Positions 2,687-40,670 of a stretch of DNA of 44,149 bases are shown here, piece after piece (the first letter of the stretch is position 1; the number at the start of each line of letters is the position of its first letter). The DNA comes from Candidatus Poseidoniales archaeon (GTDB taxonomy: Archaea > Thermoplasmatota > Poseidoniia > Poseidoniales > Poseidoniaceae), in the NCBI GenBank assembly GCA_009887095.1, contig QXYC01000006.1, forward strand, positions 1-44,149, in the 5' to 3' direction. The notes under the pieces are model-generated. The model did no database searches and was not told the origin of the DNA. It was given only the letters and a program-made list of their open reading frames with translations. The position numbers and the translations under genes are program-made.

Positions 2687-3126
2687 CAAGCAGCACCTCC
2701 TCTTGCCCACACATCGAGGGTCACAGTCCACGCGTCCGCACCAACCACCACAAGATGGTGGACGGTCACTGTCCCGCCTGCAGGTGTACCAGTCCGACCG
2801 TAAGGCGTCGCGACTCCACTGTTTTGCGTGAGCCAACAATTCGCTTCCTTTCCAACAGCAATGCTGTCCATGAGGAGCGTGCAAGCGCCATCGAGTTCGC
2901 CGTTTCCAAGCATCTCTTCGAGGCGGTTTTCGCCTTCGATTTCAGCATCGAGGCCGAGGGCGTAACGAACTGCATCATCGCCAGCAATTTCTAAGGACGC
3001 ATCATGGGCCACGGATGGTGCATCTGGGACATGAACTCGAATGAGGAACGTCGCCGACATGAAGAACAGCCAAAACAACGTCAGCATCTCAAGGATGTGG
3101 ACTTGTGCTTCCTCGTCTTGAATCAT
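2686..3126 (-). CDS. Small pilin-like membrane-anchored protein
   Basis: A 146-residue protein with an acidic 8-residue N-terminus (MIQDEEAQ), a hydrophobic segment around residues 11-30 (ILEMLTLFWLFFMSATFLI), and an extracellular-looking tail with two cysteines (near residues 82 and 97) that could pair. It resembles a minor pilin or pseudopilin in layout, but I do not recognise the family. Its ATG directly follows the TGA of the large FlaJ-like gene (TGAATG), and its own stop overlaps the next start by one base, so all three are translationally linked. Position at the end of an ATPase-FlaJ-FlaJ operon is the main support for a filament or secretion role. Confidence 0.75.
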   Translation of the reverse strand: MIQDEEAQVHILEMLTLFWLFFMSATFLIRVHVPDAPSVAHDASLEIAGDDAVRYALGLDAEIEGENRLEEMLGNGELDGACTLLMDSIAVGKEANCWLTQNSGVATPYGRTGTPAGGTVTVHHLVVVGADAWTVTLDVWARGGAA

Positions 3127-4738: not shown

Positions 4739-5756
4739 ACATGTCTTGTTCCTTGCTGCTCGTCCACACCAAAATTGCGTAGGCGATGTGAATCATTGGG
4801 ACGAAACCGAGAACGATTCCGTAGAGCATGCCCTCAGACATTTGCGCTCCAGAACCTGAAACCCAGAACATGATGACGAGCATGACAATCAAGAACAGTG
4901 GCATAGCAACTGCCACCACAATGTATGATTCTGCAAGCAGTGCAATTGATTCAAGGAACATCTGCAAGCGTGTGCGGTTTTCTCTCATGTAGTGTTCTGC
5001 CCGGTTGAGGAAGTACAACTTGAGTTGCCCTCCAGCCGTCAGTGTTCCAACCATGCCTTGGAAAAATTCAGTCAACCACACAGATGCAGCACGGTCCACA
5101 CTCATTTTCATCGCTGTAATCAGGTCGTATCCGAGCAATGTGACGTCTCGATAGACAAGTGCTGCGTCGTCTGCGACATCGCCGTAAATCTCCTTATTCA
5201 TAGCAAGTGATCTGAAAATTTTCGAGGGTGTTGCGTTTGCTGCAGACATTGCAGCGGTGTAGGATGCAGCGTATGGGAGGTACTTCTCAATCATTGCACC
5301 ACGGCGGTCAGCTTCTCGCTTTGCGCCACCTTTGTTGTACTTGAACGCTGCAAAGGGGATGATGAAGCCACCAAGGGCGACAATGATTGCCTTGACAGCG
5401 GGTGGGAACACTTGGTAGGCAAATTCATCGCAACCGTTTCCTGGTTTTGTTGGATCCACGAGGTCTTGGTTCCAATACTCCCACTCAAAACAATAATCCA
5501 AGGTTGCGGGATCTTGCATTGACTCCCAGTAGGCAATAATGCCGATGTCAGGAATGAAGAACAGGGACACAAAGCCCCAGCACACCAGAGTAATGGCGAT
5601 GGTGGTCATGATGGCCGTGGCGAGGTACACCTCAGGCATCATTTTCATGGAGCCTTTGACGAGGTTCTCCGATAGTTCCTTGTCCGCCCTTGCTCGTTTC
5701 TTAACGACGCGTCCTAGGATTCTGTTGCAAATCCTTTGCCATGCCGTTAGGTCCAT
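4737..5756 (-). CDS. FlaJ/TadC-type membrane protein of the pilus operon
   Basis: A 339-residue integral membrane protein. A basic, soluble N-terminus (residues 1-35) precedes two membrane helices (about 42-68 and 125-145) separated by a loop with two cysteines. A type II secretion F-like cytoplasmic region follows (about 160-285, with YAASYTAAMSAANATPSKIF), then two or three C-terminal helices ending in WTSSKEQDM. It should form the inner-membrane platform together with the second FlaJ-like protein, as TadB and TadC do in Tad systems. It starts at the ATG at 5756 behind GAGGAG, 20 bases after the ATPase stop. Confidence 0.85.
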   Translation of the reverse strand: MDLTAWQRICNRILGRVVKKRARADKELSENLVKGSMKMMPEVYLATAIMTTIAITLVCWGFVSLFFIPDIGIIAYWESMQDPATLDYCFEWEYWNQDLVDPTKPGNGCDEFAYQVFPPAVKAIIVALGGFIIPFAAFKYNKGGAKREADRRGAMIEKYLPYAASYTAAMSAANATPSKIFRSLAMNKEIYGDVADDAALVYRDVTLLGYDLITAMKMSVDRAASVWLTEFFQGMVGTLTAGGQLKLYFLNRAEHYMRENRTRLQMFLESIALLAESYIVVAVAMPLFLIVMLVIMFWVSGSGAQMSEGMLYGIVLGFVPMIHIAYAILVWTSSKEQDM

Positions 5757-5776
5757 CGATGCTCACTCCTCAGGGT

Positions 5777-7303
5777 TCAACGCAATCCATCGACTCGGGC
5801 GAGAATTTCGTTTGGTCGCACATAATACTCTGTGACAATTTGAGACACTTGGTCTGCTTTTCGAATGTCGTTCAGCACCATCCACTCAAGGACGCGCTTT
5901 CGTGTTCGAAGTTCACGGCGCATGTCGTCTTGTGAATAGTTGATCTTGACCATGATTTTCTCCAGCACGTAGGATTTGCCGCTAAAGATGAAATCATCTG
6001 ATGTAACGTCCCATCGGAACACTTCGTTGGTGATGATTTCCAATGAGTTCGGGTCGATACCGACAATCTCCACAAGTTGTTTTGTTCTTCGGACACGCTT
6101 TCCATTGATACGGGTCTGAATCTGAATCGCACATGCTTCCAGAGCCGGGAGAAGAACACGCGGGATGTCAATTGGTTTGTTTTCAAGCCGGTGAACAAGC
6201 GATGCAACCGAATCGGCGTGGACCGTGGAGTACGCGCAGTGGCCGGTCGCCATTGCTTGGAACAGAACATAGGCTTCTGCGCCACGGATTTCACCCACAA
6301 TGATGTATTCTGGCCGTTCACGAAGCGCTGCTTTGAGCAACTCGAACTCACCGATCACACCGTCTGTGGATTCACCACCAAATCCTTGTCTGGTCAAACC
6401 CGGGACCCAGTTTGGCTGAGGGATGTTGACTTCACGAGTGGATTCGATTGACACGATTTTCATCTGCCACGGGATGAAGATGCACATTGCGTTGAGGGTG
6501 GTTGTCTTGCCGGATGCAGTACCGCCGACGAAGAGCATAGGGACTTCATTCTGGAATGCAATCCACAGGTAAGCGACCATGAGCGATGACATGGTGCGGA
6601 ACGCAACGATGTCGGCTGGCGAGAACGGATCGTCCTTGAATCGTCGGATACAGAATGCAGAACCTCGTGTCGAGACTTCTCGGCCCAATTTCATGACAAT
6701 TCGAGAACCATCCATCAGCGTTGCATCGAGCAAAGGGGAGGCAACTGAAATGTGCTTACCACATCGCTGTGCCAACTTGATGACGTAGGATTCGAGTTCG
6801 TGATCGGTTTTCCAAACACAGGTGGTCTCCACGGATTCGAACTTTCGGTGGTAAGCGAAAATCGGAACATTTGTTCCGTCGAGTGAAATGTCTTCCACGT
6901 TGATGTCGTTCATCAGCACGTCCATCTCACCGTAGCCAATCAAGTCGCGGCGCAGGTAATAGAAAATCTTCGACTTTGATTTCTTGTTGATTTTCATTCC
7001 ATATGCCTTGATGACCTTGTCCATCGCTGTGCGAATGTAGGCCTCGGGGTTGGCATCGATTTCTTCGATGTTTGCCGTAAGGGAGCGAATGAAGATGTCA
7101 AGGATCTCGTCGCGCTGCTCTTGCTCTTTCTTGGTCATCGGGGGCTCGATGATTTGATAGATGATGTTGAGCGTTTGCTTGTCACGAACAATCCTTGCGA
7201 AGGCATGTGGGGGCATGACTGGGTACTTGTCTAATTCGTCGTATTGAGCGCGTTGTTGAGCCCGCTGACGCTTGCCCCCGCCTTTGTTGTTTTTTCTCGC
7301 CAT
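5777..7303 (-). CDS. Type II/IV secretion system ATPase (FlaI/TadA/VirB11 family)
   Basis: A 508-residue cytoplasmic hexameric ATPase that should power filament assembly or secretion. It shows Walker A GGTASGKTT (about 260-268), the Asp box SIESTREVN (about 285-293), Walker B YIIVGEIRG (333-341) and the His box GHCAYSTVHADS (354-365). The N-terminal 60 residues are very basic and then charged, in place of the longer FlaI N-domain. It is the first gene of a five-gene operon, so one ATPase serves two platform proteins, which fits a Tad-like system better than an archaellum. An archaellin gene, FlaH and a prepilin peptidase are absent from the window. The start is the ATG at 7303, preceded by AAGGGGTG. 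Confidence 0.93.
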   Translation of the reverse strand: MARKNNKGGGKRQRAQQRAQYDELDKYPVMPPHAFARIVRDKQTLNIIYQIIEPPMTKKEQEQRDEILDIFIRSLTANIEEIDANPEAYIRTAMDKVIKAYGMKINKKSKSKIFYYLRRDLIGYGEMDVLMNDINVEDISLDGTNVPIFAYHRKFESVETTCVWKTDHELESYVIKLAQRCGKHISVASPLLDATLMDGSRIVMKLGREVSTRGSAFCIRRFKDDPFSPADIVAFRTMSSLMVAYLWIAFQNEVPMLFVGGTASGKTTTLNAMCIFIPWQMKIVSIESTREVNIPQPNWVPGLTRQGFGGESTDGVIGEFELLKAALRERPEYIIVGEIRGAEAYVLFQAMATGHCAYSTVHADSVASLVHRLENKPIDIPRVLLPALEACAIQIQTRINGKRVRRTKQLVEIVGIDPNSLEIITNEVFRWDVTSDDFIFSGKSYVLEKIMVKINYSQDDMRRELRTRKRVLEWMVLNDIRKADQVSQIVTEYYVRPNEILARVDGLR

Positions 7304-27160: not shown

Positions 27161-28165
27161 TCAATTCAGTTGAGAGAAATACCCACACATTGGTCCAGTT
27201 CGTTGCTTTCCTTTGGCTTCATGAGTCGAAATCCATCGCCCCTCTCTTCGGGCCTTTAAATGGCAAGCAACCGTTTTTGTCGCGAGCATTGCAGCATTAA
27301 ATTCAGTGAGTGGACTGTGGTCGTTTGTGGCGATTTCATTGACATCAGCGCTGATGACCGTTGCGTTTGGTGCGGCGAACACCGCTTCGATTGTTTCGAT
27401 GGCCTGCCAGAACGTCAAGCCACCTGGGACCGGTGTGCCAGTGGCTGGAACAAGACTTGCATCGAGTCCATCGATGTCGATTGTTAGGTGGACGGGACCC
27501 TTGATCTCACCCAGTGCCTTCAGCCAAGATTGCCACACAGCAGCTCCGGTGCCGTGTGCTTGGGTGTCTTTAGCAAAGAATGTCGAGATTTTTTCATCGC
27601 TTTCAATGCGAAGCGATTCCTCATGGCTGTACGCTCGTACGCCAACTTGCATCAACCGGCCGATGCCCATATCGAGCGACCTTGATGCTGCGCAAGCATG
27701 TGAAAACACTTCGCCATCCAACGCAGAACGCAGGTCGGCATGTGCGTCAATTTGCACCACAGTGAGCCGGCTAAGGTCGCCAGCAATCATGGGGTGGTGC
27801 TGCAATGCCCACACAAATGGGGGAAGGATTCCGTGTTCGCCGCCAAGTGCAATTGGAAACACATCGCCAGCGCACCAAGGGGAAAGGTGCGATGCCAGTT
27901 CATCAAGTTGAGAGCGCAGGTTTGGCCCTTTTCCTTCCCATGCCTCTGCAGTGTGAATGTGTGAGCCTGCTGGCAGATCATCGCCTAGATGCTCGTCGAA
28001 CAATTCAACTTGCCCACTTGCTGCAAGGCAAGCGGCAGGGCCTTCTGCTGTGCCTTGCCCATACGAGGTGGTTAATTCGTACGGGAGCGGCAGCACCGCG
28101 ACATCGACGTCATCTCCGGGCTCAGGAAGTCCGAGAAAATTGCCTTCAGCGTAGGAGTCGCTCAC
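27161..28165 (-). CDS. speB: Agmatinase / arginase-family ureohydrolase
   Basis: A 334-residue ureohydrolase that probably splits agmatine to putrescine and urea. The binuclear Mn site is complete: GGEH (H111), QIDAHADLR (D140, H142, D144) and LTIDIDGLDAS (D230, D232). The N-terminal LPLPYELTTSYGQGTAEGPAA motif fits agmatinases. I start it at GTG 28165: the frame runs on to 28309, but a TATA box lies inside that stretch (28218-28212), so the message should begin near 28188. It sits just upstream of speD and the deoxyhypusine-synthase-like gene, which supports a polyamine role. Guanidinobutyrase or formiminoglutamase are alternatives. Confidence 0.85.
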   Translation of the reverse strand: MSDSYAEGNFLGLPEPGDDVDVAVLPLPYELTTSYGQGTAEGPAACLAASGQVELFDEHLGDDLPAGSHIHTAEAWEGKGPNLRSQLDELASHLSPWCAGDVFPIALGGEHGILPPFVWALQHHPMIAGDLSRLTVVQIDAHADLRSALDGEVFSHACAASRSLDMGIGRLMQVGVRAYSHEESLRIESDEKISTFFAKDTQAHGTGAAVWQSWLKALGEIKGPVHLTIDIDGLDASLVPATGTPVPGGLTFWQAIETIEAVFAAPNATVISADVNEIATNDHSPLTEFNAAMLATKTVACHLKARREGRWISTHEAKGKQRTGPMCGYFSQLN

Positions 28166-28210
28166 AGTTAGGGGTTTAGGGTTGTCTTCTTGAGGCTGTT
28201 GTTGAGGGTT

Positions 28211-28219
28211 GTTTATACC
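28211..28219 (-). promoter_or_regulatory. TATA box of the agmatinase-like gene
   Basis: GGTATAAAC on the minus strand lies about 50 bases before GTG 28165. It falls within the longer open frame and is the main reason for choosing the shorter start. Confidence 0.55.
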
Positions 28220-28350
28220 CACTCGGCGTGTGTAGGAGATGTTGAGGGGTAAAATGAAGCGGATAGGCGCCTGTTTCGGCGGGCGATCTTTTCCATTTGG
28301 CGGCGTCAATTCGCCGGCTCAGGGCCGATTTCATGAAAATCCGCCGATGG

Positions 28351-28360
28351 TTCTATATGT
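28351..28360 (+). promoter_or_regulatory. Possible TATA box of the DUF6015 gene
   Basis: TTCTATATGT lies about 80 bases before the ATG at 28438. It would give a leader of about 55 bases holding the GAGGTGA ribosome site. Confidence 0.4.
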
Positions 28361-28437
28361 GTCGGATGACAATACAATAGAGTGTCTGCGGGAGAAGTTG
28401 CGCGCCGGTGCGGCTTCCCCCTCGACGAGGTGATAAC

Positions 28438-28872
28438 ATGACAATGACACTCGCGGAATTAACCAAAGCCATTCAACAACACATCGATTTGGAGATGGAT
28501 GCTGAAGTCGCTCAAGGGATGGCAGAGCACGCACTCGGCTTCTTTGGCTTCTACAATCGTATCATCGACAATGCACTGGAGCCAACCGATCGAAACTTGT
28601 TCTACATGTTCCAAGACTACGACCTCTTGACCACTGAGTCAGAAGAGACCACACTATGGGACGGTCGTGAGTGGAGGATTCACTACTGGAAGTTCAAGCC
28701 AGACCTTCGAGAGCGCGTCGAAGCATACATGCAACGAAACCTCGAACCTGAAGACATCGACCCATATGCAGACATTTACGGTGGCAGCAATGCCCTCAGC
28801 CCAATTGGGACCATTTGGACCAGAGAATCCGAGAAGGTGGTCAATCCGAACGCCTTCACCTCGGACTGGTGA
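28438..28872 (+). CDS. DUF6015 family protein
   Basis: A 144-residue soluble protein. Two N-terminal helices (LTKAIQQHIDLEMDAEVAQ) are followed by the conserved block GFFGFYNRIIDN, LFYMFQDYDLLTTESEETTLWDG and REWRIHYWKFK. This matches the DUF6015 family, which I know from Thermoplasmata-related archaea and has no established function; the winged-helix-like middle suggests a regulator, as an inference. The start is the ATG at 28438 behind GAGGTGA. The C-terminal 50 residues (YGGSNALSPIG, FTSDW) look less conserved. Confidence 0.7.
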   Translation: MTMTLAELTKAIQQHIDLEMDAEVAQGMAEHALGFFGFYNRIIDNALEPTDRNLFYMFQDYDLLTTESEETTLWDGREWRIHYWKFKPDLRERVEAYMQRNLEPEDIDPYADIYGGSNALSPIGTIWTRESEKVVNPNAFTSDW

Positions 28873-28891
28873 TGTTCTCAGGTAGGCAAGC

Positions 28892-28904
28892 GTTTTTGTT
28901 GTTT
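28892..28904 (+). terminator. T-rich transcript end after the DUF6015 gene
   Basis: GTTTTTGTTGTTT follows the stop codon by about 20 bases. Archaeal transcription commonly ends in such U-rich tracts. It lies just before the ribosome site of the next gene, so read-through is possible. Confidence 0.35.
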
Positions 28905-28921
28905 AGCGGGAAGGGGTGCAC

Positions 28922-30298
28922 ATGCGAGTTGCTGTGGGTCTTGTCGTCTGTATGCTTCTTGCAAGCATTCCTGTTTCCACTGCTCAATCTGATTCGGGCG
29001 AAGCAGACGCTTGGCCTGGAGACCCAGTTGACAGCCACGTCCACATGACGTGGGCTGCATTGACTCTTGAAGTCAATGAATGGGCCGATGATTATCCGGA
29101 AATCGTCGACCTTACGAGCATTGGTCAATCGGAATTAGGCAAGACATTGTGGGTTGTCAGGCTTTCAAATTGGTCGATGGAGACCAAATTCGATGGAAGT
29201 CCGAAAGAAGTCGTCTATATTGACGGCGGCCATCACGGGAATGAATACCTTGGCACAGCCCTCGCTTGGTTGTCTGCAAAATGGTACATCAACGGTTGGG
29301 CAGAAGGCAATCAAGAAGCAATCGATGCACTCGACAACACGGAACTTCATATCACAATTATGTTGAACCCGGACGGAAATGATATTGACACGCGATGGAA
29401 CATCAATCAAGTCGATCTGAACCGAAATTACGACCATTATTGGAACACATGCCCAACCACACAACCCGGCAGCAGTGCGTTCAGTGAATCAGAGACCGCT
29501 TCAAATGGCGTGTACATGAACACGGTCGTTCCCGATGCAGACCTGTATGTAACAATGCACACTGGCGTATGGATCATGCTCTATCCGTGGGGCAAGTGGC
29601 CTGAACAACCCGCTGACTGGGAGTTGTATCACAAAATCCGGGAAGATGTCCAAAATAACATATCGAGCATTCCAATTCAAAATGCAAATCAAGGCTTGTA
29701 TCCCAATTGTGGGACAAGCAGGGACTACGGCTATGGAGTGATGGGCTATCCTACTTTCACCTTTGAAACCGATGATGAACAGTTTGTTCCAGGCTCATTT
29801 GAGAACTTGAATGAACGATTGGGTGAAGAGATGGATGTCATGAGGTTCTTGATCAACAACGTGTGGTATAACCGTGCCCGTTTGAATGTACAGAGTTTCT
29901 TAATCGATGGCGATAGCATCGATGTATCGGTTGACAATCTTGGCCATGCTTCAACAACAAACGCCACCCTTCAGTACCTCGATGCGAATGGCATGATGGT
30001 GTGGAACTCATCGACTTTTGGCGTGAACGCGACCAACAGCACAACTCTAAGCCTTGACGCAGCAAACCTCTCGATGATCGACGGCGGAACATTTGCCCTT
30101 AATTACCAAGTTCGTGTGATTGAATCCTCCCGGTGGGTCAATGAGCCACTGGATGGCGTCGAAATTGTGATTGAGGAATCTGAAGAAACCTCGTTCCTAA
30201 TCGGCTACGGCCTGTTCAATCCTCTTAGCCTCATGGCCTGCTTCATTGCTGTTGCAGCCATAGCCAACGAGCGCAAAGAAATGGACGAAGCGGCTTAA
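28922..30298 (+). CDS. Secreted M14 zinc carboxypeptidase
   Basis: A 458-residue exported metallopeptidase that should trim C-terminal residues from extracellular peptides. A signal peptide (about 1-22) leads to the M14 domain, with zinc ligands in HHGNEY (H105, E108) and TMHTG (H213), the substrate-binding VDLNRNYDHYW (164-174), and a catalytic Glu in YPTFTFETDDE. A C-terminal beta-rich domain of about 110 residues follows, then one membrane helix (near 430-450) and a short charged tail, so it stays attached to the cell. The start is the ATG at 28922 behind GGGAAGGGG; a GTG six bases earlier is possible. Confidence 0.92.
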   Translation: MRVAVGLVVCMLLASIPVSTAQSDSGEADAWPGDPVDSHVHMTWAALTLEVNEWADDYPEIVDLTSIGQSELGKTLWVVRLSNWSMETKFDGSPKEVVYIDGGHHGNEYLGTALAWLSAKWYINGWAEGNQEAIDALDNTELHITIMLNPDGNDIDTRWNINQVDLNRNYDHYWNTCPTTQPGSSAFSESETASNGVYMNTVVPDADLYVTMHTGVWIMLYPWGKWPEQPADWELYHKIREDVQNNISSIPIQNANQGLYPNCGTSRDYGYGVMGYPTFTFETDDEQFVPGSFENLNERLGEEMDVMRFLINNVWYNRARLNVQSFLIDGDSIDVSVDNLGHASTTNATLQYLDANGMMVWNSSTFGVNATNSTTLSLDAANLSMIDGGTFALNYQVRVIESSRWVNEPLDGVEIVIEESEETSFLIGYGLFNPLSLMACFIAVAAIANERKEMDEAA

Positions 30299-30336
30299 TC
30301 CACTCATTTTGTTCTAATTGGTCGACGCGAGTATTG

Positions 30337-30353
30337 AAGTGCTCTAGGCACTT
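30337..30353. promoter_or_regulatory. Palindrome in the leader of the aminopeptidase gene
   Basis: AAGTGC-TCTAG-GCACTT is a perfect 17-base inverted repeat 20 bases before the ATG at 30373. It is in the right place for an operator near the transcript start or a short hairpin in the leader. Confidence 0.4.
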
Positions 30354-30372
30354 AGGGGTATTAGGTGAACCC

Positions 30373-31863
30373 ATGAAGGTCAGCGTTAGCTCAGGACACA
30401 ACATCAACGGAACTCTAATCATGCCCATTTTTCAAGGAACAGACGCTGTTCCAGAAGCACATGCAGAAGGCATGCACACGGCGCTCAAGAGCCAAATGAA
30501 CACCGTCCTCGGTGACGGCGATTTCAAAGGAAAGGCAAAGTCGACCATGTCCCTTATGGGAACCGATGGTGGAAAAGCAATGCTCGTAGGGCTTGGTAAG
30601 GAAGACGATGCAGATGTTCACGCCTACCGAAAGGCAGGTGCAGCAGTGATCGCAGGGCGCAAGAAGTCCCACGGTACGGAACTCACCGTCCGCTTTGCCG
30701 CAACTTCGGTTGATTGCATGGCAGCCTTCGCAGAAGGCATGATGCTTCGTGATTACTCCTTTGACAAGTACAAGGCTGAAGACGAGGACAAGGAAGAGGA
30801 ACTCACAGTTCGAGTCACTTGTGATTCGGGACAAGAGAAAGAACTCTCTTCCATGATTCACACACTCCACGGTGTCGCATCGGGTGTCCATCTTTCCCGC
30901 GACCTTGGCAACATGCCTCCAAACGACATGTACCCCGAAGCCTTCGCCGACCAAGCATGGGAATGGGCAAAGAACTACGACAACGTCGAAGTGACCATCA
31001 TCAATTACGACCAAGCTATCAAAGCCGGTATGGGCGGTCTTGTGGCTGTCGGCATGGGCTCCTCGAGGAAGCCTTGCATGGTTATTTTTGAACTCAACAG
31101 TGCCAAGAAAGGCCGTGGTCCAATGCTTGTCGGCAAGGGCATCACCTTCGACACGGGCGGTATCTCCCTCAAGCCTGGCGCAAACATGGACGAAATGAAG
31201 TACGACATGGGTGGCTCCGCTACTGTGTTCGGGACCATGGAAGCACTCGCTTCGACCGGCTTCGAAGGCAAGGTCACAGCCATCACATGCATGGCAGAAA
31301 ACATGCCAGCAGCAAACGCTCAACGGCCTGGTGACGTCATCACAACGCTCTCTGGAAAGACCATTGAAGTCCTCAACACCGATGCTGAAGGACGCCTCGT
31401 TCTTTCTGATGGTCTTTGGAAGGCTGGTGAATTTGACCCAGAATACATCATCGATTTCGCCACCCTCACAGGTGCTTGTGTCGTGGCACTCGGTCACGAA
31501 GCAACCGGACTTTGGTCCAATGACGATGACTTCAGAACCCGGATTCACGAGGCTGGAAACGCTGTTGGTGAACTCGCATGGCCTATGCCACTGCTCCCTG
31601 CGTTTGAGAAGGAAATGACCGATTCAAAAATCGCAGACACTCGCAACCTTGGCGCAGGCCGCTGGGGCGGTGCAAACACCGCTGCAGCCTTCCTCAAGCA
31701 ATTCGTTCCAAACCGAAACTACGAGAAGGATGGCGAACAGATCCCATGGGCTCACATGGACATCGCTGGAACCTATTGGGGTGCAAAGACCAACACCATG
31801 GTTGGAACCGGTGCCACAGGTGTTCACGTTCGTACCATGTACCATCTAATCACCAACGGATGA
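30373..31863 (+). CDS. pepA: Leucyl aminopeptidase (M17 family)
   Basis: A 496-residue cytosolic aminopeptidase that removes N-terminal residues with two metal ions. KGITFDTGG (K255, D260) and NTDAEGRL (335-342, the M17 signature with D337 and E339) are intact. SGVHLSRDLGNMPPNDMYP marks the start of the catalytic domain and the first 160 residues are the usual N-terminal domain. Its length is normal for PepA. It starts at the ATG at 30373 behind AGGTGA; the frame upstream to 30334 overlaps the palindrome. It follows the exported carboxypeptidase on the same strand, which fits stepwise peptide use. Confidence 0.95.
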   Translation: MKVSVSSGHNINGTLIMPIFQGTDAVPEAHAEGMHTALKSQMNTVLGDGDFKGKAKSTMSLMGTDGGKAMLVGLGKEDDADVHAYRKAGAAVIAGRKKSHGTELTVRFAATSVDCMAAFAEGMMLRDYSFDKYKAEDEDKEEELTVRVTCDSGQEKELSSMIHTLHGVASGVHLSRDLGNMPPNDMYPEAFADQAWEWAKNYDNVEVTIINYDQAIKAGMGGLVAVGMGSSRKPCMVIFELNSAKKGRGPMLVGKGITFDTGGISLKPGANMDEMKYDMGGSATVFGTMEALASTGFEGKVTAITCMAENMPAANAQRPGDVITTLSGKTIEVLNTDAEGRLVLSDGLWKAGEFDPEYIIDFATLTGACVVALGHEATGLWSNDDDFRTRIHEAGNAVGELAWPMPLLPAFEKEMTDSKIADTRNLGAGRWGGANTAAAFLKQFVPNRNYEKDGEQIPWAHMDIAGTYWGAKTNTMVGTGATGVHVRTMYHLITNG

Positions 31864-31888: not shown

Positions 31889-32728
31889 GTGGTGATTGTG
31901 CGGCGAAGGGCATCAATCCCCGCTCGTATCAACATCATCGGTGAACACACCGATTACCTTGGCGGACTTGCCTTACCCTTCGCAAGCGATCATCGCCTTG
32001 TCCTCACCGCCACACAGGCGGAACAGACAACCGGTGACGAAACGGTGGTTGATTTATGGCGTGCTGCGGGCGGTTGGCCTGCGACGTTGGAGATTGAGAG
32101 CACCATTCCAATCGGCGCTGGCATGTCGTCATCAGCAGCGTTGTGCTTGGCCATCGTGTTGTGCGCACAAGGCCCACAAGACGCACTTGCGGCGTGCAAA
32201 GAAGCACAACGTCTCGAGCATCAGGTGTTGAAGACACCGTGTGGTTTGCTCGATCAAATGGCGATGATGATGAGTTCAGAGAAGCATGCCGTTTTGATTG
32301 ACTTTGCCACGATGGATTGCAAACCGTTCCTCCTCCCTGATGATTGGTTGTTCAAAACAGTCGATTCAGGAATCCGTCGACAGTTGAGTGAAACAGAATT
32401 TGGCGCTTCTTCGGATGCTCAGGTGTTGAGCCGGCATGCCACGGAAGAAAACCTCCGGGTGCGCCAAGCGCTAGGCGCTTCATGCGTTGAACTCGGCGCC
32501 CTGCTCAACGCTTCGCACGCTTCGCTGCAGTCCATTGGCGTTAGCACGCCCGAAATCGACGACCTCGTCGCTGACCTCCAATCAACCCCCGGAGTCCTTG
32601 GCGCTCGAATGATGGGCGGCGGTTTTGGTGGAATGATCTTGGTGGCTGTCGAGGGTTCGGAGATCCTCCCCGATGTGCCACTGCTCAAAGCCTCACAATG
32701 TGGATTCCTTGAGAAAGGTTTCGAGTAA
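31889..32728 (+). CDS. galK: Galactokinase (GHMP family), compact
   Basis: A 279-residue GHMP kinase that should phosphorylate galactose or a related sugar at C1. The galactokinase signature RINIIGEHTDYLGG (13-26), the ATP-binding IPIGAGMSSSAAL, the catalytic Asp in LLDQMAMM, and MMGGGFGG are all present. It is about 100 residues shorter than E. coli GalK. The start is GTG at 31889 (others at 31892 and 31898 are possible). It lies 25 bases after pepA. Its last 36 bases overlap, tail to tail, the end of the glycosidase-nucleotidyltransferase fusion. Confidence 0.85.
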   Translation: MVIVRRRASIPARINIIGEHTDYLGGLALPFASDHRLVLTATQAEQTTGDETVVDLWRAAGGWPATLEIESTIPIGAGMSSSAALCLAIVLCAQGPQDALAACKEAQRLEHQVLKTPCGLLDQMAMMMSSEKHAVLIDFATMDCKPFLLPDDWLFKTVDSGIRRQLSETEFGASSDAQVLSRHATEENLRVRQALGASCVELGALLNASHASLQSIGVSTPEIDDLVADLQSTPGVLGARMMGGGFGGMILVAVEGSEILPDVPLLKASQCGFLEKGFE

Positions 32729-34666
32729 AGCGAGACGCTCAGGCGTTCCCATGTCCCAAAAGGCAGTTTGGTCGAGATGGACGGCGGCTTTTCCACTCAA
32801 GGCGGGGTAGACCGTTTCTTCCCAACTCCATACGCCCTCTTTTCCATGTTCGAGGACAACAGATTTCTCTACAACACTCGTTCCGGATTCATAGCCATTC
32901 AAGTCGCTGGTTTGTGTCGTCTTGTTGTAGGCCTCCAAGCGTCCTTCTGCGTGTTTGAGGTTCATCTGTTCGTGCTTGGTCGTTGCTGTCATTGTGAGCG
33001 GTGCTCCTGCTTTCTCGTGTGTTTTGAGCAGGCTGTGATAGTCGATCGGATGAAGGTCATCGCCCCAGAGAAGAATGAATCGGTCTTCGAGCAAGGAGCG
33101 AGCGTTCCATAGAGCTCCGCCTGTGCCAAGTGGTGTGGGTTCTTGGTGGAAATTCACAACCATGCCTGGGTGGGTGAATTCATCGAACTGTTCACCAAGA
33201 TGCCCTGTTAAGACAAGGGCGTTGAGGCAACCTTGGCGTTGGGCCCAGTCGAGGATATGACTGAGAATTGGTTTACCATTCACTTCGACGAGCGACTTTG
33301 GAATGCGTTCAGTGACTTCACCGAGGCGTGTGCCGAGGCCACCTGCCATGATGACCACCTGTGGGGTGCGGTGGGATTTGACAATGGATGCGTAGGTCGC
33401 GCCACTTTCTTTCAAGGTGCGCTGTTTGGTTTCAAAGTCGACATGGTAGAGTCCAAACCGCTGGTCATATCCCTCTGCCCATTCGAAATTATCCATCAAA
33501 CTCCAGTGATAGAACCCTCGTACATCGAGCCCATCAGCGATGGCTTCAGCAGTGATTTGTAGATGTCGGCGAATGTGTTCAGGGCGCATGTCGTCGTCGT
33601 CATCGGCCACACCGTTTTCTGTGACAATGATTGGAAGACCGAGTCCTTTGACCATCTCAAAAGCTCGACGCAGGCCTTCTGCATACATTGGATATCTGAA
33701 GTCGGTTCGTTGTTCCCACGGCCGAATCAATGGGTCAATCTCCACCTTCGTTGGCATAAACGGCGTGGCGAGTAAATGCGTGTAATAATTCACGCCAATG
33801 AAGTCTGAACTGTTTTTCAATCCAGGGACTCGTTTGGCTCTAAGGGCCGAAGGTGGTTTGAAACGGCCGGTCCGAACACCGTTGATCCAGCACCGGTTGA
33901 ACATCCCATCAAGCACCCTTGCTTGAAGCCAGTGAAGAGGGTTCCATCTTCTGTACGGGTCGAACAAGTTGATGTTTTTCACAAGTCCGATTTCACACAA
34001 CCCTCCGTTCTCCATTCCTTTGAGCGTTTGGTAGCATGTGGCGTGCGCTCTCATCATGTTCATGGCAACGGCTTTGGCTCGCTTGAAGGAACGCACACCG
34101 GGAGGGAATTCGCCCAGAACATACCCCATTGTTGTGAACACGGCAGGTTCGTTGATGGTGCACCACCACCTTACGCGGTCACTCAACAAGGCAAACATTC
34201 GCTTTGAAAAATCAATCCAATGGTGAAGGTTTTCTTCTCGTTCAAATCCACCTTTTTCTTCCCACCAAATGGGTTGAGTAAAGTGATGCAGGGTCGCCAT
34301 GGGCTGAATCCCATTCGCAAGCAATTCATCGACTAAATCGCTGTACCATTGCGCAGCCTGCTCGTTCCATTCGCCTTCTTGAGGAACGATTCGTGACCAT
34401 TCGATGGAAAACCGGTAATGAGAGACACCAAGATCTGTAATCAATCCGATGTCCTCTGTCCTTCGATTCCAATGGTCGCAAGCCTCTCCACTGAGTTGCT
34501 TGCTCTTCGAACGTGGTTCAAACGCAGACCAGTTGTTGGTGTTTCCACCTTCAATTTGGTGCGATGCAGTTGCAACACCCCACATGAACTGCTTTGGAAA
34601 CGCGGTTCCATCTTCGAGTGAATCGTACTTGACCTTGGTCCAATCACGGTGCTCCTCGGTCCACAT
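32693..34666 (-). CDS. GH1 beta-glycosidase fused to a sugar-1-phosphate nucleotidyltransferase
   Basis: A single 657-residue frame with two enzymes. Residues 20-430 are a family 1 glycoside hydrolase: FMWGVATASHQIEG, acid/base E173 in INEPA, nucleophile E350 in VTENG, and HWSLMDNFEWAEGY. From residue 436 a nucleotidyltransferase begins: VVIMAGGLGTRLGE with PKSLVEVNGKPIL (K457), the metal-binding GDD (535-537) and FWDMGTPERL near the end. The first should release a sugar from a beta-glycoside; the second activates a sugar-1-phosphate to an NDP-sugar. There is no signal peptide, so both act in the cytoplasm. The linker is only about six residues and no frameshift is seen. I start at the ATG at 34666; upstream frame to 34789 runs into the tRNA gene. 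Confidence 0.9.
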   Translation of the reverse strand: MWTEEHRDWTKVKYDSLEDGTAFPKQFMWGVATASHQIEGGNTNNWSAFEPRSKSKQLSGEACDHWNRRTEDIGLITDLGVSHYRFSIEWSRIVPQEGEWNEQAAQWYSDLVDELLANGIQPMATLHHFTQPIWWEEKGGFEREENLHHWIDFSKRMFALLSDRVRWWCTINEPAVFTTMGYVLGEFPPGVRSFKRAKAVAMNMMRAHATCYQTLKGMENGGLCEIGLVKNINLFDPYRRWNPLHWLQARVLDGMFNRCWINGVRTGRFKPPSALRAKRVPGLKNSSDFIGVNYYTHLLATPFMPTKVEIDPLIRPWEQRTDFRYPMYAEGLRRAFEMVKGLGLPIIVTENGVADDDDDMRPEHIRRHLQITAEAIADGLDVRGFYHWSLMDNFEWAEGYDQRFGLYHVDFETKQRTLKESGATYASIVKSHRTPQVVIMAGGLGTRLGEVTERIPKSLVEVNGKPILSHILDWAQRQGCLNALVLTGHLGEQFDEFTHPGMVVNFHQEPTPLGTGGALWNARSLLEDRFILLWGDDLHPIDYHSLLKTHEKAGAPLTMTATTKHEQMNLKHAEGRLEAYNKTTQTSDLNGYESGTSVVEKSVVLEHGKEGVWSWEETVYPALSGKAAVHLDQTAFWDMGTPERLALLETFLKESTL

Positions 34667-34759
34667 GGTTTGACCATCTGGGGGGGATAGAAGAGCCTTA
34701 TCCCATGACCGGTGGGCTTTGAGGGTACAGTCGTCTGACTTTGTTGTTGAGTTGAGAGG

Positions 34760-34830
34760 TGCGGATAGCGGGAGTTGAACCCACGACAAAAGGTTGGAAA
34801 CCTCCTATGATACCACTTCACCATATCCGC
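34760..34830 (-). tRNA. tRNA-Gly (anticodon UCC)
   Basis: The minus strand forms a cloverleaf with acceptor stem GCGGATA/TATCCGC, anticodon stem GGAGG/CCTTT with loop TTTCCAA (anticodon TCC, reading GGA and GGG), and a T-arm with GTTCAACTC. The discriminator is A at 34760. The next bases read CCT, so CCA is not encoded, unlike the other glycine tRNA in this window. No intron is present. Confidence 0.95.
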
Positions 34831-34895: not shown

Positions 34896-37800
34896 TCAAC
34901 TGATGCCCGGTGGCGGTGGTGGTGCCCTGCCGTTGAAGCCAAAGGCTTGTCGTCGTGGGTCATTGCTGGCGTTCTTGCTTCGTTCCAATCGTTGACTGAT
35001 CAAATCCCGGGCGCGCTCCAATCGTTCTTCTGCAGCCTTCTTCTTGCTTGCATTTCCACGAATCATGAGCATACCCATCAAGAAGAACAGCACTAAACCA
35101 CCAATGGCAGCTTGGACAATTGCATTCTCGAGGATTGAAGCAAGAAGCCCCTCATCCCCGCTCGACTCTTCCTCGACAACGATGTTTGAATCGTAGGCCT
35201 TGAGCGTAATGGATACCGTGTCCATACCGACATCCGATCCCGGTTCTTTTGCAACCAAGACCAATTGATAGGTTCCGGCGTAGCGAGCCACGCCGTCGAA
35301 TGTGATGGTTTGGGAACCGCCACTGTTTGGCGTGAAGGTGATCACTTGGGTCTGAGAGCTCGCAGTGATTGCGGAAATGGCTTGCCACTCCACTCGCACC
35401 GTGACTTCTTCGATTTCAGTGGATACCGTACACTGGAAGTTGAACCAGCCTCCACCAACGATGTCAATGTCGTCGATGGGAGTGCATTCCATGCTCCCCT
35501 CTGCGGAGTTACGGGTTGGATCGGTTGGCCAATGATCTGGTTTGAATGCACCAGCCGATTCATTGTCACCCCATCCATCTCCATCTTGGTCCAACCACTG
35601 GCTTGCTTCGTTGGGGAAGGCATCTTCATCGTCGCCATACCCGTCTTGATCCGCATCAGGGCAACCCCGTGTGGCTCCAAGGTTCGAAGTTCCAAAGTCA
35701 TCAGGGCATCCATCTCCATCGGTTCCATCTGGATTGTCACCATATCCATCTTCATCAGAGTCATACCATTGTGAGGCATCACCAAGCCACAGGTCTGCAT
35801 CATCGCTGACGCCATCATTGTCGTCGTCAGGGCACCCAAATTGATCCACTGTTGAGGTTCCAATTACGGTTGGGCAAGCATCTGGTTGTGTGCCATTGGG
35901 ATTGTCACCGTATCCATCGCCATCTTGATCGGACCACTGAGTTGCATCATCTGGGAATGCGTCGTTGTCTTGGGAAGAACCATCGTTGTCACCATCGGGG
36001 CATCCATACACATCGACGTTCGACAAACCGTATTCGGTTGGGCAGGCATCTGGGAGGGCACCCGCTGCATTGTCACCGTATCCATCACCGTCTTGGTCTT
36101 CCCATTGTGTCGGCTCAAGCGGTAAAGCGTCTGCTCCGTTGCTCTCATTCCAATCAATGTCGTTTCCACCAGCGATGGTTGGGTTCGAGTATCCGTCTCC
36201 ATCAGCGTCTCTGCATCCAACTCGGTCTTGGGTTGAATTTCCTGCCACGAGTGCGCAATCGTCCAAAAGATCGTCAACACCATCGCCATCAGAATCCTGA
36301 GAACGGGTTGGGTCATCGGGGAAGGCATCGCTCATGTTTGACATTCCATCGCCGTCATCATCAGGACAGCCATATCGGTCAAGTGTCGAATTTCCAGGGA
36401 CACCGGGGCATGCATCAGGCAGTGGTCCAGTTGCATTGTCGCCGTAACCATCACCGTCTTGGTCCAACCATTGGTTGGCTAGGTCTGGAAGTGCATCGTT
36501 GGCATCATCCCAGCCATCGCCGTCAGTGTCGATGCACCCGTAACGGTTCCCATTGGTGGAATTGCCAGGCACGCCGGGACACGCATCGGCTGTCGTGCCG
36601 CCAGGGTTGTCCCCGTACCCATCACCATCAATGTCAGACCATTGTGTCACGTCATTTGGGTGCGAGTCTTCTTGATCAGCCCATCCATCTTGGTCAAGGT
36701 CTGAACATCCCAACGTGCCGTTTTGCCATGAATTTCCGACTTCTGTCGGGCAGTCATCAGCAAGGTTTCCTGAAGCATTGTCACCAAACCCATCCCCATC
36801 AGTATCGGTTGTTTGAGTTGGATCGGTCTTGAACGCGTCGGAACCATTGTTCGCAACAGTCCAGTTGGCGTCTGGGTCAGAAACTCCATCGCCGTCTGTG
36901 TCAGGACAGCCGACACGATCGATTGTTGAAGTTCCTGCATACAGTGGGCAGGCGTCATCGATTTGGTCTGCAACGCCATCATTGTCGAAATCAGACCATC
37001 TGAGGATATCTGAAGGGAACGCATCTGCGCCATCTTCCGCTCGCCAAAGAGCATCTGGATCCGAGTAGGTGTCACCATCTGAATCGAGGCAGCCGTATCG
37101 GTCTGAACTTGAGGTGCCAGCATCGTTAATGCAAGCATCGGGGGTGGTTCCCGTAGGATTGTCACCAAATCCGTCGCTGTCAGTATCCACCCACTGAGTG
37201 GAATCAGATGGCCATACGTCTGCACCATCGGCAATGGTCCAAACAGGGCCATTGGTTCCAGTGAGATCTTCATCGGAGGAGCCATCACCATCGGTGTCAG
37301 GGCAACCATATCGGTCCCGTGTTGAGGTGCCTGGGACTGTTGAGCAAGTGTCTGGTTGGTTGCCGGCTGCATTGTCTCCGTACCCGTCGCTGTCGCTGTC
37401 GCTCCATTGGGTTGGGTCGTTCATGAATGCGTCCGCTCCTTGGGCAATGGTGTAGCCCGCAGCGGGGTCAGCGTACCCGTCACCGTCAGTGTCTGTGCAA
37501 CCAAGCCGACCGAGTTCGCTCGAAGTCCCACTTATGGTTGGGCAGTCATCTGCATCGTTTCCAGAACTGTTGTCTCCATAGCCATCGCCATCAGCATCGG
37601 CCCATTGCGTGACATCGCTCGGGAATGCATCTGCGCCATTTAGGGCAGCAGTCCATGTTGCGTCGGGGTCGGAATAGCCATCGCCATCGCTGTCTGTGCA
37701 TCCGAGACGGTCTTGGCTTGAGCTTCCGCTCACCGCTGGGCAGCTATCGCCGAGTGTTGCAGGAGGAGGGTTGTCACCATAGCCATCGCCATCGGTGTCG

Positions 37801-40568
37801 ACCCACTGTGTTGAATCACCAGTGAATGCATCTGCACCATCGGTGACCAACCACACTGGGCCGTTGGTTCCAGTTGGATCTGGATCGCTGTATCCGTCGC
37901 TGTCGTCGTCAGGGCAACCACTTCGGTCTTGGCTGGAGGTTCCGGCAACAGTCTCGCATGCATCAGCACCGAGGGCAACCGTCCATAGAACATCGGGGTC
38001 GGAGAATGAATCACTATCGCTGTCTGGGCAACCGTAACGGTCACCTGTTGATGTGCCAACGACTGCGATGCAGCCGTCGGGACTCACACCTGCTTGGTTG
38101 TCGCCATAGCCATCGCCATCGGTGTCGGCCCATTGCGTGATTTCGTTGATGAATGCGTCTGCTCCGTTTGCCACGGTCCATGTTGCATTTGGATCTGAGT
38201 ATCCATCACCATCTGTGTCGGGGCAGCCAACTCGGTCTTGAGTCGATGTACCCGGGACAATGAGGCAGTCGTCTTCATCGTCTTCAATGCCATCGAAATC
38301 CATGTCTTCAGTCAAGTTCACCAAATCAGTGTCGAGGTTGAGTGCGACCGCAAAATGTTGGGGGCCAGTAGGGACGCTTGTACCCAAGACATGAACTTCC
38401 CAACTGCCCTGTGCAGGTGATGCAAAACTCAGGGCACGCAGGTTGTCGAGGTTGTTTGAGAGGTTGGTCCATGTGCCCGACGGGTCCTTGACGGCCAAAT
38501 CTAAATCGTTCACCAGATTCGTGCTTGCAGCAGGTGTGCTCGCTGGATCTGTCCAAGAGAGCGCCACTCGCAAGTCCGGGGATGCTGGGGGCACGATGAA
38601 ACTCCAGCCTCTCTCTTCGCTGGTTTGAACTGAGTCACCGTCAATCCATGTGGTGTTGACCGCACTGCGTAAATCAACCAAGCCCCAGCCTTCGTGAATG
38701 TTCGGTGCCGGTTCACCCGCTCCGTTTGTGGAGGAGGAATACTGTCCTTGCATGTCTCGGGCCGACGCCGTGAAAATTGCTTTCACCAAGGATGAATTTG
38801 GGTCGGAATGACCTTCGTTGTCGATGAGGTGTTGGGTGATCAGTGCCGCAGCCCCTGCAGTGAGGGGGCATGACATGCTCGTTCCTCCCATGAATGTGTA
38901 ATTCGAATTACCCGAGTACGCACCCCATCCAGTGCTGGTTGTCGACCTTGATTTGGTTGAGAGGATGAAGCTACCCGGCGCAGTGATGTCGGGTTTCATT
39001 CGCCCATCATCAGTTGGGCCTCGGCTTGAAAAAGCAGCCAATCCCTCAGAGTTGTCTGCCATTCGATCAGAGTTGACAGGATCGCTTGGGTACTCGACAG
39101 GCCACCATCCACCCCATTCAGATGTGATTGTAGGGCGGTCGTTCTCACCTGCGGCAACAGTGATGACGTTCTTTCCAGTGGCTGGTGAGCCGAGTGAATC
39201 ATCGTCAATTTCGCCATCAGAATTTCCATCGACCCCGCTGTTTCCGGCGGAGAAAAGAATCGTCATATTCTGGTATGTTCGGGCGCTGGAATCCGCTTGC
39301 ATCGAACCAGAGGTGTAGGCTCCAGCAACACTTGATCCCCATGAATTGGTGTGCACGCGGCTGCCGTTTTCCCACGCAGGTTCAAACATCGTGGTGTAAT
39401 CTGAAGGAATTCCGGTGAGGTAGTAGCCGCCATCACTGTCACAATATTGCTCTGTAGCTTGCATGTAAAGGCGGGCTTCAGGTGCTGCGCCACGAATGGC
39501 CCCTCCAGTATTGGTGCCATCGCCAAGAACCGAGCCTGCAACGTGTGTACCATGGCCGGTATCAAGGTCTTCAGCTCCGTCGTCGTTGCTCGATGCACCA
39601 CACGAAGAAGTCCATCCAGGGGACATCGGGAAGGAGACAATATCGACAATGTGGTCCCGCAAATCAGGATGCATGTTGCTGTTGTTGACGCCGTTGTCGA
39701 GCCCTGTGTCTGAGACGGTGACGATGATGCCGCTTCCATCGAGTCCGCTCCACGAGGCGTCAATGCCGGACATGATGGTTGGGTCCCAGACTTGATCCGT
39801 GTTCATCACCGTGTCTGCCACGTCGTTGTGGAGCGTGTGCCATGGACGTTCTTCAATCCATTCGATTTCATCTTGAGCCGCCAGCCAAGCAATCGCTGTT
39901 GGCTTGATAATGGCAGTTGCAAAACGCCCTTGGTGGTATTCAAGGACGATGTCATCCCGGCTGTTGATGCCTTCTGGCAATGCCTCGCCGCTGAGGACAA
40001 GGTTTGCGGAAGCCACGCCCTCTCGGACAAAGAGGTTCTCAGTGGTCATTTCCAACCCCGTAATTCCTTTGACGAGGTTTTCCCTCACCTTGTCGACGCC
40101 GTCCAGTTTGACGATGCCTTCAACGTTGAGTTCGGTCAGTTCTTCGATTGTATGACCCTGTAAGTTGCAATGGAATCCATTTGGTGGCAAAAACGAATGG
40201 CAATCGATGCCGGCTGCCTCGAGTTCGTTGAACCAAGGCGATGGAACTGGGAAGGTGTGAGTGATGACAAACCATCCCTCAAGGGTTTCTCCCATTCCGC
40301 TCCATGCGGACCATTCGTGCACTGGAATGACAGAAGCGTCTCGATAAATGAGGTCAATTGCACCCATGCCCTCGGCGGGATCAAACCACCCGTTCGCAAG
40401 GTCACCAGAGGGGTGAAGGTCAACGGTGGATAGCAAATCCAAATCCACCTCGGTGTCCACTGCTCGAGCGGGTGTTTCAGCAGAGCCAAAGAAAGTGACA
40501 GGGGCTAGAACTTGAATCAGCATGAGGGCTGAGAAGAGAAGGGCGCTCCGACGGCGATGCTGCGTCAT
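34896..40568 (-). CDS. Giant cell-surface subtilisin-like protease with thrombospondin type 3 repeats
   Basis: About 1890 residues. A signal peptide (about 1-30, twin arginines near the N-terminus but not a clear Tat motif) and an inhibitor-like pro-region lead to an S8 domain (about 275-600) with D287 in VSDTGLD, H339 in TGHGTHVAG and S564 in GGTSMSCP. A P-domain-like beta region follows to about 750. Then come about fifteen thrombospondin type 3 type repeats (Asp-rich DTDGDGYSDP and GCPD units) that should bind calcium. After a further beta domain there is one helix (about 1815-1838) and a basic, coiled tail (EERLERARDLISQRLERSK) ending in Pro-rich PPPPPGIS. It should digest protein outside the cell while anchored. 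An ATG 27 bases earlier (40595) is an alternative start. Confidence 0.93.
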   Translation of the reverse strand: MTQHRRRSALLFSALMLIQVLAPVTFFGSAETPARAVDTEVDLDLLSTVDLHPSGDLANGWFDPAEGMGAIDLIYRDASVIPVHEWSAWSGMGETLEGWFVITHTFPVPSPWFNELEAAGIDCHSFLPPNGFHCNLQGHTIEELTELNVEGIVKLDGVDKVRENLVKGITGLEMTTENLFVREGVASANLVLSGEALPEGINSRDDIVLEYHQGRFATAIIKPTAIAWLAAQDEIEWIEERPWHTLHNDVADTVMNTDQVWDPTIMSGIDASWSGLDGSGIIVTVSDTGLDNGVNNSNMHPDLRDHIVDIVSFPMSPGWTSSCGASSNDDGAEDLDTGHGTHVAGSVLGDGTNTGGAIRGAAPEARLYMQATEQYCDSDGGYYLTGIPSDYTTMFEPAWENGSRVHTNSWGSSVAGAYTSGSMQADSSARTYQNMTILFSAGNSGVDGNSDGEIDDDSLGSPATGKNVITVAAGENDRPTITSEWGGWWPVEYPSDPVNSDRMADNSEGLAAFSSRGPTDDGRMKPDITAPGSFILSTKSRSTTSTGWGAYSGNSNYTFMGGTSMSCPLTAGAAALITQHLIDNEGHSDPNSSLVKAIFTASARDMQGQYSSSTNGAGEPAPNIHEGWGLVDLRSAVNTTWIDGDSVQTSEERGWSFIVPPASPDLRVALSWTDPASTPAASTNLVNDLDLAVKDPSGTWTNLSNNLDNLRALSFASPAQGSWEVHVLGTSVPTGPQHFAVALNLDTDLVNLTEDMDFDGIEDDEDDCLIVPGTSTQDRVGCPDTDGDGYSDPNATWTVANGADAFINEITQWADTDGDGYGDNQAGVSPDGCIAVVGTSTGDRYGCPDSDSDSFSDPDVLWTVALGADACETVAGTSSQDRSGCPDDDSDGYSDPDPTGTNGPVWLVTDGADAFTGDSTQWVDTDGDGYGDNPPPATLGDSCPAVSGSSSQDRLGCTDSDGDGYSDPDATWTAALNGADAFPSDVTQWADADGDGYGDNSSGNDADDCPTISGTSSELGRLGCTDTDGDGYADPAAGYTIAQGADAFMNDPTQWSDSDSDGYGDNAAGNQPDTCSTVPGTSTRDRYGCPDTDGDGSSDEDLTGTNGPVWTIADGADVWPSDSTQWVDTDSDGFGDNPTGTTPDACINDAGTSSSDRYGCLDSDGDTYSDPDALWRAEDGADAFPSDILRWSDFDNDGVADQIDDACPLYAGTSTIDRVGCPDTDGDGVSDPDANWTVANNGSDAFKTDPTQTTDTDGDGFGDNASGNLADDCPTEVGNSWQNGTLGCSDLDQDGWADQEDSHPNDVTQWSDIDGDGYGDNPGGTTADACPGVPGNSTNGNRYGCIDTDGDGWDDANDALPDLANQWLDQDGDGYGDNATGPLPDACPGVPGNSTLDRYGCPDDDGDGMSNMSDAFPDDPTRSQDSDGDGVDDLLDDCALVAGNSTQDRVGCRDADGDGYSNPTIAGGNDIDWNESNGADALPLEPTQWEDQDGDGYGDNAAGALPDACPTEYGLSNVDVYGCPDGDNDGSSQDNDAFPDDATQWSDQDGDGYGDNPNGTQPDACPTVIGTSTVDQFGCPDDDNDGVSDDADLWLGDASQWYDSDEDGYGDNPDGTDGDGCPDDFGTSNLGATRGCPDADQDGYGDDEDAFPNEASQWLDQDGDGWGDNESAGAFKPDHWPTDPTRNSAEGSMECTPIDDIDIVGGGWFNFQCTVSTEIEEVTVRVEWQAISAITASSQTQVITFTPNSGGSQTITFDGVARYAGTYQLVLVAKEPGSDVGMDTVSITLKAYDSNIVVEEESSGDEGLLASILENAIVQAAIGGLVLFFLMGMLMIRGNASKKKAAEERLERARDLISQRLERSKNASNDPRRQAFGFNGRAPPPPPGIS
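35570..38306 (-). repeat. Tandem thrombospondin type 3 coding repeats
   Basis: About 2.7 kb of imperfect tandem units coding for DxDGDGxxD calcium-binding loops, alternating with C-P-x3-GTS-x2-DRxGCPD segments. About fifteen GCxD units are visible. The DNA repeats GTCACCATATCCATC-like blocks on the plus strand. Unit lengths vary, so slippage or recombination between copies is likely over time. Confidence 0.85.
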
Positions 40569-40670
40569 GGGCCTCGATGGTCGCGGCTCCCACATGAATG
40601 ATTGGTTGGGATGGAAGTGTTATGCATGCTGCGGCGAGGGTTCAAATGGCGCGCGCTCGGGGGGCAGTTT

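Follow-up and report, generated by a model that had tools for sequence, protein, structure and literature searches.

How a family 1 glycoside hydrolase (GH1) comes to share a polypeptide with a sugar-1-phosphate nucleotidyltransferase (NTase), and what the joined enzyme might do, are the questions raised by one gene on contig QXYC01000006.1 (assembly GCA_009887095.1) of a Poseidoniales (Marine Group II) archaeon. We analysed the whole 44,149-nucleotide stretch, here called the window, together with related genomes and loci, and find that the two domains form a conserved single reading frame beside a convergent galactokinase-like gene, in an order of archaea in which the galactose-1-phosphate enzyme GalT is almost absent. 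From this arrangement we infer that the fused protein is probably a bifunctional cytosolic enzyme of GalT-independent (Isselbacher-type) galactose salvage, with the first and last steps of the route in one polypeptide.

A glycosidase and a nucleotidyltransferase in one frame

No stop codon separates the GH1 and NTase domains (Table 1). A preliminary description of this locus had placed both in one uninterrupted frame with complete motifs, and this stands: the frame, the Pfam domains and the residues E173, E350, GGLGTRL, K457 and GDD are all present as described, and the linker, put there at about six residues, measures about 4–6. The GH1 half scores 315 bits against profile PF00232 across profile positions 4–451 of 453, which places it in GH1 over the whole domain, and residues 437–565 of the NTase half belong to NTP_transferase (PF00483) at 52.9 bits against a cut-off of 21.2 (E = 5e-14). 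E173 lies in the motif TINEP and E350 in TENG, GGLGTRL occupies residues 442–448, and E395-W396 of the GH1 half belongs to the non-phospho subsite. Across an alignment of 47 rows (the window protein and 46 distinct frames, one of which is the window's own again), E350, K457, D536 and D537 are kept in every row and E173 and D638 in 46, with one gap each. A methionine directly precedes PQ-V-V, the motif at which the NTase begins, in 23 of the 47 rows, and several free-standing NTases also have it there; the window fusion carries threonine at this position. The methionine common to fusions and free NTases fits an end-to-end joining of two genes. The likely start of the fusion is the ATG at 34666, because the tRNA-Gly gene just upstream makes the in-frame TTG at 34789 unlikely, and within the window's own assembly (1.48 Mb, 68% complete) the fusion is the sole GH1-bearing match.

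The same architecture recurs in related genomes. Among 170 genomes of the family, 62 of them from the genus, full-length, stop-free matches of 63–96% identity occur in genera g1, g2 and g5, and this spread across genus and family and across many independent assemblies rules out both an oddity of one genome and an assembly or frameshift artefact. In 318 genomes of the order, searched at E values up to 1e-30 for the NTase and up to 1e-20 for GH1, the NTase is found in 97, GH1 in 124 and both in 85. In 60 of the 318 the two domains are joined by a frame that stays open through the junction (27 in g1, 4 in g2, 23 in g5, and 6 in g19 and g20 of the other family), several of them ending at contig edges; the fusion thus occurs in both families of the order, and one of the assemblies with a full-length match is a single 2.06 Mb contig. 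A stop or frameshift near 33370, separating the domains, had been named as a ground for doubt, and some relatives do carry the halves as separate genes, yet 60 genomes are fused in an open frame. Although the existence of such free-standing relatives could speak for an artefact, they leave the fusion standing, because on a quick tree the fused GH1s group in a separate clade; with the frame open in so many assemblies, an artefact is vanishingly improbable. The fusion of genome G060 (L026; L176 3021–5441) has an in-frame insert of about 120 residues in its NTase domain and lacks about 20 profile positions, and the profile match of the free NTase of G006 (L136 8424–9407) is likewise split in two inside a single frame.

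Both halves are under purifying selection, as judged from substitution rates. Relative to the two nearest relatives, the ratio of nonsynonymous to synonymous change (dN/dS) is 0.05–0.056 for the GH1 half and 0.049–0.056 for the NTase half; against four more distant relatives, synonymous change is saturated in 7 of 8 comparisons. The halves also tend to occur together when they are separate. The NTase stands without a GH1 fusion in the remaining 37 of the 97 NTase genomes, 25 of which have GH1 elsewhere, so that with fusions set aside GH1 is present in 25 of 37 NTase genomes against 39 of 221 others (odds ratio 9.7, uncorrected for kinship). In the GH1 tree, built quickly and without bootstrap like the NTase tree, 45 fused rows and two contig-edge pieces of fusions (L028 and L029, labelled free) form one clade with a Shimodaira–Hasegawa-like approximate likelihood ratio test (SH-aLRT) value of 99. 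Its sister group comprises 24 free rows: for 23 of them neither title nor kinship contradicts an assignment to Poseidoniales, and the remaining row (L057) belongs to a record titled Acidiferrobacter. The simplest reading would be one fusion event with later loss or exchange.

An AlphaFold2 model of the whole fusion has a predicted local distance difference test (pLDDT) score of 89.1 and a predicted template modelling (pTM) score of 0.87, with a mean pLDDT of 91 in the junction block (residues 431–440) and the weakest values in blocks 391–400 (60), 301–310 (65) and 441–450 (66, the nucleotide-binding loop); the NTase half modelled alone reaches 93.1 and 0.91. Foldseek returns 1vff, the BGPh enzyme of Pyrococcus horikoshii, as first match of the fusion (40% identity, template modelling score 0.88 on the target), and 1vff is also the closest solved GH1 by sequence (E = 1.3e-98). 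For the NTase half, HddC comes first, followed by a cytidylyltransferase, GMPPB and MurU; the archaeal NTase half is nearest to mannose-1-phosphate and heptose-1-phosphate guanylyltransferases and MurU.

A convergent kinase and the near-absence of GalT

A galactokinase had been described tail to tail with the fusion. Its position holds, the two genes overlapping by 36 bp, and its identity is better put as galactokinase-like: the protein exceeds the Pfam cut-offs of PF10509 (the galactose-binding signature), PF00288 and PF08544 and carries GEHTDY, GAGMSSSAAL, PCGLLDQ and MMGGGFGG, but it is short (279 residues) and misses the galactokinase equivalog TIGR00131 (122.5 against 226.65 bits). Among 25 kinases, including longer galactokinases, R13, H20, D22, G119 and D122 are invariant and E19 is kept in at least 90%; these six positions we take to be the sugar contacts of galactokinases. 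One row of a kinase alignment (L132k), read out of frame, was left out of account.

The NTase beside a convergent galactokinase-like kinase is the steadiest feature of these loci. In all 17 of the free-NTase loci L120–L136, and in 15 of 16 further ones, the kinase adjoins the NTase and converges with it; these 33 loci represent 33 of the 37 genomes with a free NTase, and at the sole miss, L154, the NTase lies 166 bases from the contig start. Fused loci show the same pairing, with the kinase as direct neighbour in 45 of 48 (some genomes are represented twice; the three misses end inside the NTase) and in all six fused loci among L140–L145. Gene neighbourhoods outside the pair vary between lineages, and the pair is therefore not kept merely by general gene order. 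At L145 (G252, 5596–6765) the kinase frame has 390 residues, about 107 of them inserted behind the first 72 profile positions. In 16 of 24 loci, one of the few genes nearest the free NTase–kinase pair encodes a lipoprotein-like protein of about 500 residues (cluster c3, for example L132 9801–11294); considered as a clue to the substrate, it gave Asp-box/BNR Pfam matches that are all below cut-off.

GalT (PF01087) was found in 1 of the 318 order genomes, in a search whose control gave matches in 6 of 14 named genomes, and in 0 of 14 genomes of an earlier, smaller search. The lone GalT contig (G071 C39, locus L181) carries, by eye, sulfatase-like genes, a standard-length galactokinase and a sugar symporter; judged by eye from its proteins it looks bacterial and is probably contamination, and we rejected G071 as an archaeal GalT carrier.

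Bacterial and other loci fetched with the fusion as query offer a comparison. Gene order is major facilitator superfamily (MFS) transporter–GH1–NTase–GalK in L073 (Neomarinimicrobiota) and GH1–NTase–GalK in L075 (titled proteobacterium), and the genome of L072 has an NTase–GalK pair; GalT was not found in the genomes of L072, L073, L075 and L080, whose completeness is not given. Elsewhere the order is melibiase–GH1–GalT–GalK (L089, Coprothermobacteraceae), or GalT–GalK–GH57 beside GH1 (L094, Thermoplasmata). In the GH1–NTase–GalK runs, then, the NTase appears to take the position that GalT has in these other loci. The bacterial NTases are of GlmU type, unlike the archaeal NTase with its mannose-1-phosphate and HddC-type neighbours, and two NTase types therefore appear to occupy the same place; with very long branches on the NTase tree as well, the bacterial proteins were rejected as orthologues of the archaeal one. 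L080 (titled Deltaproteobacteria) has, behind GH1, a 614-residue frame (1664–3505) that holds both NTase and GalK, a separate kinase–NTase fusion.

Table 1. Positions of the fusion gene, its domains and adjoining features in the window
Feature	Coordinates	Strand	Basis
Fusion gene, 657 residues plus stop: GH1 beta-glycosidase and sugar-1-phosphate NTase	32693..34666	-	Single open frame; Pfam domains
GH1 domain, residues 22–432; acid/base E173, nucleophile E350	33371..34603	-	Pfam PF00232, E 6e-94; nearest structure 1vff; residues kept
Junction of about 4 residues between GH1 and NTase domains	33359..33370	-	Alignment
NTase domain, residues 437–657; GGLGTRL, K457, GDD 535–537, D638	32696..33358	-	Pfam PF00483; nearest solved relatives HddC, MurU, GMPPB and others
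Compact galactokinase-like GHMP kinase, 279 residues, convergent with the fusion	31889..32728	+	Pfam GHMP_kinases_N, GalKase_gal_bdg, GHMP_kinases_C
3′-terminal overlap (36 bp) between fusion gene and kinase gene	32693..32728	.	
tRNA-Gly (TCC), directly upstream of the fusion	34758..34830	-	

Further out in the window, the minus strand encodes a secreted-looking, subtilisin-like protease of 1,899 residues (34896–40595) with long repeats of DxDGDG calcium-binding type, seen by eye; its cluster (c33) is a neighbour of the fusion in 5 of the 18 fused loci that were compared. The other flank (27161–31863) holds an agmatinase/arginase-like gene, an M14-like carboxypeptidase and an M17-like aminopeptidase, named from sequence appearance.

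Candidate reactions and their alternatives

In galactose salvage, the GH1 half would cleave a beta-glycoside and free its monosaccharide, most likely galactose; the kinase encoded convergently would make the sugar-1-phosphate, here galactose-1-phosphate; and the NTase half would join this to a nucleotide to give a nucleoside diphosphate (NDP)-sugar, either UDP- or GDP-galactose. Since the NTase half depends on NTP, the GH1 half is expected to lie on the cytosolic side. The order glycosidase, kinase, NTase, as the preliminary description had it, is favoured by linkage: the pair is kept across differing neighbourhoods, the free halves co-occur, bacteria have corresponding runs and GalT is nearly absent. 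The sequences themselves show the fusion, its intact motifs, the purifying selection, the linkage and the near-absence of GalT, from which the order of reactions, the sugar, the nucleotide and the use of the product are inferred. Feeding of surface glycans, which the preliminary description put forward as a use of the product, would be speculative.

Several observations weigh against galactose salvage. The nearest NTase structures act on other sugars, partly with GTP. Kinase, NTase half and GH1 half miss every NCBIfam cut-off shown, the NTase half falling below those of HddC (NF049965, 64 against 300 bits) and MurU and the GH1 half below the beta-glucosidase equivalog TIGR03356 (330.4 against 478.5 bits); by these profiles the fusion and the kinase belong to no named equivalog. 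A seventh kinase position, tyrosine by consensus and presumably a galactose contact in known galactokinases, is phenylalanine in the window. The NTase tree, with its poorly resolved backbone, needs five changes of the fused label. Among the order genomes, which are incomplete, 12 of the 97 with the NTase show no GH1 and 39 with GH1 show no NTase. GalE, the epimerase that would link NDP-galactose to central metabolism, gave weaker profile matches in 14 of 14 genomes and none above cut-off. GalT is lacking in 15 of 19 genomes checked, so its absence is not specific, and ten genomes with a galactokinase above cut-off divide into four with an NTase pair (looked for only beside the kinase), three with GalT and three with neither.

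Some of these points would suit the same salvage logic applied to another sugar, with the kinase acting on fucose, arabinose, heptose or hexosamine, for example, and the NTase making the matching GDP- or UDP-sugar. The short kinase below the galactokinase cut-off, its phenylalanine in place of a sugar-contact tyrosine and the resemblance of the NTase to mannose-1-phosphate and heptose-1-phosphate guanylyltransferases all lean this way, and GH1 enzymes also accept glucosides, fucosides and mannosides. The match to PF10509 and the retention of the six presumed contacts argue instead for galactose, as do the GH1 relatives in L089 and L094 that adjoin GalT, and we regard a different sugar as unlikely. 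It is more improbable still that neighbouring genes were joined without functional coupling and that the halves are metabolically unrelated. Such a history would account for the 39 of 64 genomes with a non-fused GH1 that show no NTase, but the fused GH1s form one strongly supported clade spanning both families, free GH1 and free NTase co-occur, and GH1–NTase–GalK runs exist in bacteria.

A further alternative shares the chemistry of soluble-glycoside scavenging and differs in substrate and purpose: at the inner membrane face, the GH1 half would cleave head groups from glycolipids, either lipids of the cell itself or algal ones that it has ingested, with kinase and NTase recycling the sugar for resynthesis. 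This possibility arises from a hydrophobic stretch before GH1, read by hydropathy from stop-to-stop frames in which some upstream residues may not be translated. Among free frames of the Poseidoniales clade 24 of 25 have the stretch (the exception is a piece of a fusion at a contig edge), as do 21 of 27 other frames, including all 17 that come from the nearer bacterial loci (L070–L083, L107 and L113), and 6 of 38 fusions, five of the six in the group that branches first among fusions on the quick tree. Basic residues follow it in many frames, which together with the fusion to an NTP-using NTase implies that GH1 would face the cytosol. The nearest solved GH1 is also suggestive, since passages of one study describe BGPh (1vff) as membrane-associated and tending to cleave long-chain alkyl glucosides (PMC4687101). 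However, neither the window protein, whose highest 19-residue hydropathy upstream of the GH1 domain is −0.3, nor 32 of the 38 fusions has the stretch, and the MFS transporter gene preceding GH1 in L073 is a better fit to an imported glycoside. Glycolipid turnover is a possibility that we place somewhat on the unlikely side. More tentatively, and with considerable doubt, the glycosidase–NTase of Marine Group II may represent an undescribed enzyme class that, with the compact galactokinase, turns the sugar of membrane glycolipids or ingested galactolipids directly into NDP-galactose without GalT; the fusion would have begun membrane-anchored at the inner face and become soluble in the lineage of the window.

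Relation to known systems

Pairs of a kinase and an NTase are also formed by HddA with HddC and by AmgK with MurU. Of the solved structures, HddC and MurU count among those closest to the NTase half and are similar to it in length; the NTase half differs from them in scoring below their cut-offs, in having a galactokinase-like partner and in its attachment to GH1. Galactose salvage as proposed here would resemble the Isselbacher, or UDP-sugar pyrophosphorylase, route of plants, in which, according to passages of PMC6329318, galactose-1-phosphate from galactokinase is converted to UDP-galactose by a pyrophosphorylase where GalT activity is low or lacking. Here the NTase is instead of HddC/MurU/GMPP type, fused to GH1 and in an archaeon. 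That a salvage kinase and a pyrophosphorylase can share a polypeptide is illustrated by the fucokinase/GDP-fucose pyrophosphorylase Fkp, as two sources describe (PMC11982464, PMC12732313). The kinase–NTase frame of L080 is of the same general kind, whereas in the window the fusion partner of the NTase is not the kinase but the glycosidase proposed to free the sugar. BGPh, the closest solved GH1 by both sequence and fold, has no NTase domain, and its membrane contact is described, in passages of PMC4687101, as a hydrophobic surface mound, in contrast to the N-terminal hydrophobic stretch that relatives of the window protein carry and the window protein lacks.

The preliminary description knew of no enzyme with this pairing, and we saw no GH1–NTase pairing in the open-access literature searched, which is weak evidence of absence. 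Passages of Marine Group II surveys credit the group with few glycoside hydrolases and report a single GH1 in MGIIa, assigned to beta-glucosidases, as well as a subunit annotated as galactose permease in both MGIIa and the basal clades of MGIIb; these passages do not mention the NTase half, the fusion or the kinase (PMC6864105, PMC6336850). If GH1 is tied to nucleotide-sugar synthesis, the reading of this enzyme would shift from polysaccharide digestion to sugar salvage. The locus would then represent a galactose route in which an NTase replaces GalT, apparently reached more than once through different NTase types. Its carriers are abundant archaea of the ocean that seemingly lack GalT, the usual galactose-processing enzyme, and for them the fusion route is probably its replacement.

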